This document shows positions 22,095 through 23,993 of a DNA stretch of 26,067 nt, in pieces. The translations under genes and the position numbers were made by a program. Numbering within the stretch: position 1 is the stretch's first letter; each line of letters starts with the position of its first letter. This DNA comes from a virus: positions 1-26,067 of the IMG/VR virus record IMGVR_UViG_3300033571_000586; one strand, written 5' to 3'. The notes under the pieces are model-generated. The model did not search any database. It worked only from the letters and a program-made list of their open reading frames with translations, and was not told the DNA's origin.

Positions 22095-22327
22095 TTGATC
22101 AGTCCACCATTGATGACCCAGACAACTGCAGCAGATATAAATCCTCCAACAACAAACAGTAGTGACTTGTCACGAAGTTCAGTTCTACGCTTCTCAGATG
22201 CACTCATACTCTCCACTGTCTTATTCAGAACAGCGATAGTCAGATTGAGTTCATTGATGGTTGCACAGAGTCTGGCAATTTCTTCTTCCAGTCTCTCAAC
22301 TCGCCTAAGCGTATCTTCTTCGGCCAT
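22091..22327 (-). CDS. Coiled coil plus membrane segment, lysis accessory
   Basis: The protein has 78 aa. Residues 1-50 are a coiled coil (EEIARLCATINELNLTIAVL), followed by a basic stretch and one membrane segment near 53-73 (SLLFVVGGFISAAVVWVI). This is the build of XhlA-type or antiholin/holin-partner proteins found in phage lysis cassettes. Its start overlaps the endopeptidase stop (TAATG). It could set holin timing or be a second holin; sequence alone cannot decide. Confidence 0.6.
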   Translation of the reverse strand: MAEEDTLRRVERLEEEIARLCATINELNLTIAVLNKTVESMSASEKRRTELRDKSLLFVVGGFISAAVVWVINGGLIK

Positions 22328-22728
22328 TACTTATAGACCTTTGCAGATAGTTGATGATGGGGTGCATCCCAGCCCCAGTCCCATCCATGTTCCATCTCAA
22401 TGTCTAAATCTTTGGCAGCTTGCTTCATAGCTTCATAGATTGGCTTGTACGCATCCCAGTCATCTGAGTTAGGGATACCATCAACATCATGATCCCCTTT
22501 GTAGGGATGTGGGTGTAGGTCTACAGCATGTCCAGTGAGATGGCGAGAGTTCATGGTACGAGAAGCACCACTGGCTACCAGCCGCTTCTGACGCTCTAGG
22601 CTACGTACACCTTCACCAACTGTAAAGTCTTGAGTAGTAGTTGTGATAGCCTTCTCGACCACCTTAATGAGATCGGCGTGGACACCCTTAAGGTTCTCTC
22701 TGGATTTTGCCCCAAGACTAAAGCTCAT
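22327..22728 (-). CDS. Endolysin, M15-type L-Ala-D-Glu/DD-peptidase
   Basis: The protein has 133 aa from the ATG at 22728, which overlaps the upstream stop as ATGA and has GAGGGA upstream; an ATG two codons earlier lies too close to that site. Zinc motif SRHLTGHAVDL (61-71: His63, Asp70) and the C-terminal WDAPHHQL (His124 region) are the signatures of peptidase family M15, which cuts peptidoglycan stem peptides. There is no signal peptide, so it depends on a holin, and the holin-like gene lies just downstream. The length fits single-domain phage endolysins. Confidence 0.9.
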   Translation of the reverse strand: MSFSLGAKSRENLKGVHADLIKVVEKAITTTTQDFTVGEGVRSLERQKRLVASGASRTMNSRHLTGHAVDLHPHPYKGDHDVDGIPNSDDWDAYKPIYEAMKQAAKDLDIEMEHGWDWGWDAPHHQLSAKVYK

Positions 22729-22967
22729 TCCCATTCCCTCTTACGATCTGGTTCAAAGACATCCCGTTTCCTAAGATGTCCCTCAAGGTACATTGCTCTC
22801 TCAACTCTATCCAGACTGTACCTAACGCCAGTATCCTGATGAATCGCTTCTCGCACATAGAACACATCAGAACGAGGGATGTGAACCCTTTGCAGAACCT
22901 TTTCGTCACCAGCAGCAAGTGCCTTGTAGAACTGACCTAGTACGTCTTCATCTGAGAAATACTTCAT
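22725..22967 (-). CDS. First gene of the leftward block, role unknown
   Basis: The protein has 80 aa, charged, helical (EDVLGQFYKALAAGDEKVLQ, then YSLDRVERAMYLEGHLRKR), with no membrane segment. VREAIHQDTGVRYSLDRVER reads like a small winged-helix or RFX-type DNA-binding segment, but this is weak. Its stop overlaps the endolysin start. The start codon lies 5 nt after a TATAAC box, which suggests a leaderless mRNA from the nearer promoter. Confidence 0.65.
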   Translation of the reverse strand: MKYFSDEDVLGQFYKALAAGDEKVLQRVHIPRSDVFYVREAIHQDTGVRYSLDRVERAMYLEGHLRKRDVFEPDRKREWE

Positions 22968-22972
22968 CCGTA

Positions 22973-23000
22973 GTTATACTCCAAGTATGTCCATAGTCAA
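22973..23000 (-). promoter_or_regulatory. Leftward promoter for the lysis block
   Basis: TTGACT (23000-22995), a 16-nt spacer, TATAAC (22978-22973), then TACGG and the ATG. This would start RNA at the first codon. GGAG further up would fall outside the RNA, so translation would be leaderless from this promoter. Confidence 0.6.
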
Positions 23001-23038: not shown

Positions 23039-23275
23039 CATAAGGTACTTGAAATTCACTTTCTCCTACCTAAGTATATACTTAAAGAGATACATGATGA
23101 GATACATGATGTTGTACTTTATGCTTCCTTATGTTTCTCTTATTTTTATATAATATATAAGTAATACTTAAGGTATCATTATGAAAGCATTAAGTACACT
23201 TAGGTAGCTTAAGGTAGCATAATGAGTACCTTATGTCTCTCATGGTGTATCTCATCATGTATCTCTTTAAGTATA
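23039..23275. repeat. AT-rich control region with 30-bp inverted repeat and iteron-like repeats
   Basis: A perfect 30-bp inverted repeat (23077-23106 and 23246-23275) encloses 139 nt of AT-rich DNA. The left arm region holds a 12-bp direct repeat, GAGATACATGAT (23087-23098 and 23099-23110). A further 11-bp pair, CATAAGGTACT (23039-23049) and its complement (23225-23235), interleaves with the arms. Two 19-mers of the type CTTAAGGTA-N-CAT-N-ATGA start near 23166 and 23207. This is the densest repeat structure in the window and lies between the divergent gene blocks. Candidate roles are replication origin, control region or a MITE-like element. Confidence 0.7.
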
Positions 23276-23282
23276 CTTAAGT

Positions 23283-23311
23283 AAGATACCCGCGATTCAC
23301 CCTTTTGTCAA
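23283..23311 (-). promoter_or_regulatory. Second leftward promoter, at the edge of the inverted repeat
   Basis: TTGACA (23311-23306), a 17-nt spacer, TATCTT (23288-23283). Start of RNA would fall near 23276, the first base of the 30-bp repeat arm. The transcript would begin with one arm and carry the other arm 170 nt later, so it could fold into a 30-bp stem before reaching the lysis genes. Confidence 0.45.
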
Positions 23312-23592: not shown

Positions 23593-23847
23593 CTTATTGG
23601 TTTTACTAATTTCTGGCAGAGTGTGTATATACGTACGTGACACCCCCGTATGGCCCATGCCCGCCCCCCTGATCCGCCCGGATAGGCATAGGTATAGGGC
23701 TTCGCCCCAGAATGTTTGTCTTCGGGATGCCAACACATTGATTTTCAACAACAAAATACAGAATGAATCTTTATGCTTTACCGAAGGTAGGGGAGTTTTT
23801 GGTGGGGTTTCCCACATCATGCCGCAATGCAGCGAAAGCATGAACGT

Positions 23848-23890
23848 CATCATGCCATCATCATGTCATCATCATGCCAGCATCATCATG
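23848..23890. repeat. CATCATCATG minisatellite
   Basis: About four tandem units of CATCATCATG plus one to four variable bases, the first unit shorter than the rest. It lies between the control region and the first palindrome. It has no coding sense in any convincing frame. Confidence 0.65.
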
Positions 23891-23972: not shown

Positions 23973-23993
23973 ATATGTCGGATCGTCCGACAG
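23973..23993 (+). promoter_or_regulatory. Palindrome 1 of the TGTCGGA-N3-TCCGACA array
   Basis: The palindrome core is 23976-23992 with centre TCG. The left flank reads GGATA and the right flank GGTC. It stands 126 nt before the start of the first rightward gene and before a TTGACA box, so it heads the whole operon. Confidence 0.75.

Follow-up and report, generated by a model that had tools for sequence, protein, structure and literature searches.

A predicted promoter and arrays of palindromic sites precede the late genes of HMO-2011-type marine phages

Results

A gap between divergent gene blocks in an HMO-2011-type phage

The window, by which we mean the whole stretch of 26,067 nucleotides that was analysed (IMG/VR record IMGVR_UViG_3300033571_000586), is a 26-kb tailed-phage fragment from a marine phage of the HMO-2011 type. 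Phages of this type rank among the ocean's most abundant (PMC6918029). The terminase encoded in the window is approximately 58–74% identical to those of HMO-2011 and the CRP phages, the coat and small first late genes also match HMO-2011 and the Roseobacter CRP phages, and besides the terminase, shared gene content and the late/early layout place the fragment in this group. The minus-strand genes up to position 22967 encode virion and lysis proteins, and the plus-strand genes from 24119 onwards are early genes. The two divergent blocks are separated by a 1.15-kb gap that holds an inverted repeat, and the features in and around it are listed in Table 1. The same layout is found in a relative (L004, comprising L106–L108; contig IMGVR_UViG_3300043399_000099), whose genome closes into a circle of about 56,384 bp, the contig ends sharing a 238-bp overlap at 99.6%.

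Table 1. Positions of predicted promoters, repeats, palindromic sites and genes at the late end of the divergent gap (window coordinates).
Feature	Position	Strand	Remark
P1, sigma70-like promoter TTGACA-N17-TATCTT	23283..23311	-	predicted start about 23277-23276
Palindromic site TACTTAAGTA, between P1 -10 and start	23274..23283	.	exact match to group consensus
Promoter-side arm of perfect 30-bp inverted repeat	23246..23275	.	includes site-like CTTTAAGTA and 12-bp units
Site TACTTAAGGTA	23165..23175	.	invariant leader stretch
AT-rich core between the arms	23134..23193	.	83% AT, the highest for any 60 bp in the window
Gene-side arm of the inverted repeat	23077..23106	.	1-2 inverted units in relatives
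Degenerate site TACCTAAGTA, adjoining the gene-side arm	23067..23076	.	
P2, TTGACT-N16-TATAAC, predicted	22973..23000	-	-35 at 23000-22995, -10 at 22978-22973
First late-block gene, 80 aa	22725..22967	-	conserved throughout the HMO-2011-type group
Endolysin, late-block gene 2	22327..22734	-	PHROG 465, E 1.6e-46

Two other sets of repeats were noted in the window. The palindrome TGTCGGA-N3-TCCGACA occurs five times in the early block (at 23976, 24788, 25080, 25725 and 25996), with each copy embedded in ATATGTCGG..CCGACAGRT and with differing centres, and two of the copies immediately precede a Shine-Dalgarno sequence and ATG. Four copies are present in L004 and four in a further relative, L013, and none was found in the HMO-2011 or CRP sequences searched; it looks like a repeated operator or an RNA hairpin. 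In the divergent gap, three tandem TCATCATGCCA-like copies with an 11-bp spacing occupy positions 23847–23886.

A predicted promoter is conserved ahead of the late block

The initial annotation had placed a TTGACA-N17-TATCTT promoter, termed P1 here, directly against the inverted repeat, and this was confirmed, with the -35 hexamer at 23311–23306 separated by a 17-nt spacer from the -10 hexamer at 23288–23283. The start predicted for P1, from sequence only, lies 309 nt from the ATG at 22967, which is the distance to the first late-block gene that had been proposed. Close relatives were represented by 13 IMG/VR contigs with the locus, one of which (L012) ends inside the region and two of which (L003 and L004) are identical there; both hexamers are preserved in 12/12 of the close relatives that hold the region.

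The comparison was then widened using the first late gene, relatives of which number at least 583 in viral contigs. Of 80 loci retrieved, 72 extended far enough upstream to be analysed. A P1-like promoter scoring at least 10/12 is present in 97% of the 72 homologous leaders compared with 21% of shuffles and 14% of the other strand, and one scoring at least 11/12 in 85% compared with 1.9% and 1.4%, respectively; as the 72 loci are mutually related these counts are not independent, and they overstate independence.

The inverted repeat is a local arrangement of 12-bp units

The arms of the inverted repeat are perfect over 30 bp and lie 139 nt apart, in agreement with the initial annotation, and can be extended (23077–23111 and 23241–23275) to 35 nt at 94%. 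The repeat scores 30, whereas the best score reached by dinucleotide shuffles of the window leader is 10.5, and an inverted repeat of such length is not due to chance. The AT-rich loop that had been described between the arms is likewise present (Table 1).

A 12-bp unit, GTATCTCATCAT, and its inverse make up both arms. Among relatives the number of units ranges from one to seven in the promoter-side (right) arm and from one to two in the gene-side (left) arm, and the best arms are 11 to 35 nt long and mostly mismatched. Conservation of the arms, which the original proposal led one to expect, was therefore not seen: the perfect 30-bp repeat is not kept. The promoter-side arm is near-constant while the gene-side arm drifts, and compensating changes are absent. 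On this comparison, the 30-bp inverted repeat is best described as a lineage-specific expansion of 12-bp units beside oppositely oriented sites, and as the local version of a predicted group-wide control region made up of a promoter and repeated palindromic sites.

Palindromic site arrays follow P1 throughout the group

In the 72 leaders of the wider group, P1 is followed by arrays of a 10–11-bp palindrome (TACTTAAGTA / TACTTWAAGTA) that flank an AT-rich core, and in another branch GTTWAAC-like sites replace the TACTT-type palindrome. Counted over these related loci, CTTWAAG occurs 156 times compared with 9.5 in shuffles, and GTTWAAC 55 times compared with 10.3. One leader (L128) carries CTTAAGTA 12 times, both strands counted, in two clusters around an AT-rich stretch. 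The first site mostly lies within 30 nt of the P1 -10 in homologues, and some sites are located upstream of P2, the second predicted promoter. As in repressor-type arrays, these are short palindromes at a promoter whose position is conserved across relatives, and they overlap or closely follow the predicted transcription start.

A motif cluster is enriched in the leader relative to the remainder of the genome in HMO-2011, CRP-2, CRP-9, CRP-13 and CRP-207, with a different motif variant in each of these phages. Repeated motifs are also present in CRP-603, CRP-1 and CRP-345, for which the comparison covered short flanks only. The sites resemble the Caulobacter CtrA box, TTAA-N7-TTAA, in having a TTAA core in a 10–12-bp register. 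However, TTAA spacers of N6, N7 and N8 are about equally frequent here (36, 40 and 34), with no preference for N7, and a host CtrA box was rejected as a candidate.

A second array lies upstream of the integrase gene in some relatives

Many HMO-2011-type phages carry integrases. Nine relatives with the TACTT-type site have a second cluster upstream of the integrase gene. In five genomes of the CTTWAAG type (those with ACTTWAAGT arrays) this cluster is directly upstream of the integrase ORF, about 5–6.5 kb from the main array, and in four contigs of the window group it is upstream of the integrase, about 9–10 kb from the main array. The integrase was identified by Pfam PF00589 in L004, L202 and L203 and by homology in the others. 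CRP-9 and CRP-13, which have no annotated integrase in the stretches read, carry a second cluster in an early intergenic gap, and a search of HMO-2011, CRP-2 and CRP-207 found none. Promoter matches at the second array are weak to moderate in these five genomes, and in the window group no clear match was found before the integrase cluster.

Other features were observed close to the integrase. A tRNA-Arg (TCT) gene separates the second array from the integrase in L206 (1850–1926); in L004 (L106, 10997–11073) such a gene precedes the integrase by about 3 kb. A GGGTAGCAC...GTGCTACCC hairpin is located just before the integrase ATG, after the second site cluster, in L210–L212 and L207.

P2 and the 80-aa protein

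A second promoter had been annotated after the stem, and P2 matches it. In the window 5 nt separate the end of P2 from the ATG at 22967, a spacing that predicts a leaderless mRNA. A P2-like match (TTGAC-N16/17-TATAAC or a near variant) is present in 65/72 homologous loci, the evidence being weaker in several CRP phages because the -10 falls inside annotated coding sequence. In relatives such as L154, L184, L186 and L198, a TTTGTCGT-like word also precedes P2 by about 15–25 bp, and 19 of the 72 loci have TTGTCGT or TTGCCGT no more than 110 nt from the ATG.

The 80-aa protein has no Pfam match, and its homologues give only weak PHROG matches. A structural model (mean pLDDT 75) gave no confident match to a DNA-binding fold, and family and fold searches gave no firm assignment of the protein, as a CI-like HTH repressor or otherwise. 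When motif class was compared with the sequence of the 80-aa protein there was no clear correspondence. A scan of bacterial and archaeal genomes for the gene returned two matches, one near-full-length at 71% identity on a Blastopirellula MAG contig (L208), which is possibly a misbinned phage contig, and one of 21 residues only in an Ignavibacteriales MAG. By position alone, the 80-aa protein is a candidate binder of the palindromic sites.

Discussion

The initial annotation offered four readings of the repeat: a regulatory leader, a source of small RNA, a replication origin or a MITE-like element. A regulatory region at a promoter is the part that stands, P1 and the array recurring across the group, whereas the RNA reading, as far as it depends on the 30-bp stem, was not supported, and the MITE reading was rejected. 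On balance, we think that the element is probably a promoter-operator region. It would let a phage protein, most likely a repressor, govern transcription of the late genes and, in some members of the group, of the integrase operon as well. Host RNA polymerase would start at P1 and read leftward through the late block. A phage DNA-binding protein, probably a dimer, would bind the predicted TACTT(W)AAGTA palindromes at the P1 start and then about 100–200 bp downstream, on both sides of the AT-rich core, and would most likely block or loop P1. The 80-aa protein would have a transcript of its own from P2, probably leaderless, and where sites lie upstream of the integrase gene they would place both operons under one regulator. 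What is read from sequence comprises the sites, the matches to P1 and P2, the conservation of these and the second cluster, and from this we infer protein binding, repression and a candidate for the binder. Repression is preferred since P1 is near consensus and the sites cover its start; the choice of probable repression over activation is based only on where the sites lie.

Operators of this general kind are already known. The arrangement resembles OL/OR and CI of phage lambda in having several palindromic sites on a promoter and two separated clusters, and the cI mRNA of lambda is likewise leaderless. In contrast to lambda, the phage sites here are 10–11 bp long, lie on or downstream of the start of a predicted late promoter and flank an AT-rich core, and no CI-like protein was identified. 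The stoperators of mycobacteriophage L5 are many copies of a short repressor site in one genome; the L5 sites are asymmetric and scattered, whereas the sites described here are palindromic and gather at one or two loci. A search of papers available without subscription turned up no previous account of this module in phages of the HMO-2011 type. These phages are not known to have a phage RNA polymerase, and no mechanism is known to time their late genes.

The region could instead be a replication origin: DNA would unwind in the AT-rich stretch between iteron-like repeats, and leading-strand synthesis would be primed by RNA from P1, as it is by transcription at T7. This is unlikely, although no other 60 bp in the window is as AT-rich as the core, the tandem 12-bp units lie as direct repeats beside it in the manner of iterons, a strong promoter is situated just ahead of it, the location is between divergent gene blocks, and relatives carry replication genes in the early block. 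The primary origin of T7, where transcription primes leading-strand synthesis, consists of phi1.1A/B and an AT-rich region, and it too has a strong promoter directly before the AT-rich stretch. Here, however, there is a host-type sigma70 promoter, together with palindromic arrays and, in some genomes, a second array; in nine relatives matching sites also precede the integrase gene, which fits an operator better. GC skew was discarded as evidence, since in six genomes the sign change tracks gene orientation and not the antipode, and it is thus uninformative on an origin.

It is quite unlikely that the protein bound to the same predicted array activates P1 or P2, as a middle or late activator would. 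Late genes require delayed expression and sites are present upstream of P2 too, but P1 departs little from the sigma70 consensus, and the sites fall on the start and early transcribed region, the usual place for a repressor.

A structured leader or small RNA, folded from the P1 transcript around the 30-bp stem, is very unlikely. All leaders of the window group do fold far below shuffles (z -4.6 to -8.7), but inverted DNA sites produce such folds by themselves. The RNAalifold consensus of 12 sequences omits the 30-bp stem, its covariation term gives no support, and the leader has no Rfam match. The copy number of units in the two arms varies independently, and since changes in the arms are not compensated a conserved RNA stem is unlikely.

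The second cluster adjoining the integrase gene in nine relatives might suggest arm-type sites for an integrase or excision factor. Such a recombination site is highly improbable, because arrays are kept in phages without an annotated integrase (CRP-9 and CRP-13, in the stretches read); moreover, the main array is about 5–10 kb from int and abuts the promoter in nearly all leaders. Finally, the chance that the inverted ends seen in the window mark a MITE-like mobile element with 30-bp ends is negligible, as these ends are not conserved among relatives and a search of viral contigs found the repeat as an element only at the homologous site, other matches being isolated and single, with no dispersed copies.

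Returning to the promoter-operator region, its predicted regulator may have a candidate in the 80-aa protein. It is conceivable, if unlikely, that this protein, made from its own leaderless mRNA, represents a new family of DNA-binding regulators that would repress late transcription and, in genomes with the second array, the integrase operon, as a lysis-lysogeny switch. If so, the 80-aa regulator would be the lysis-lysogeny switch in one of the most abundant marine phage groups. The analysis names a probable late promoter and a predicted operator for HMO-2011-type phages, tied in part of the group to the integrase operon, and the question of their regulation becomes testable in cultured CRP phages.
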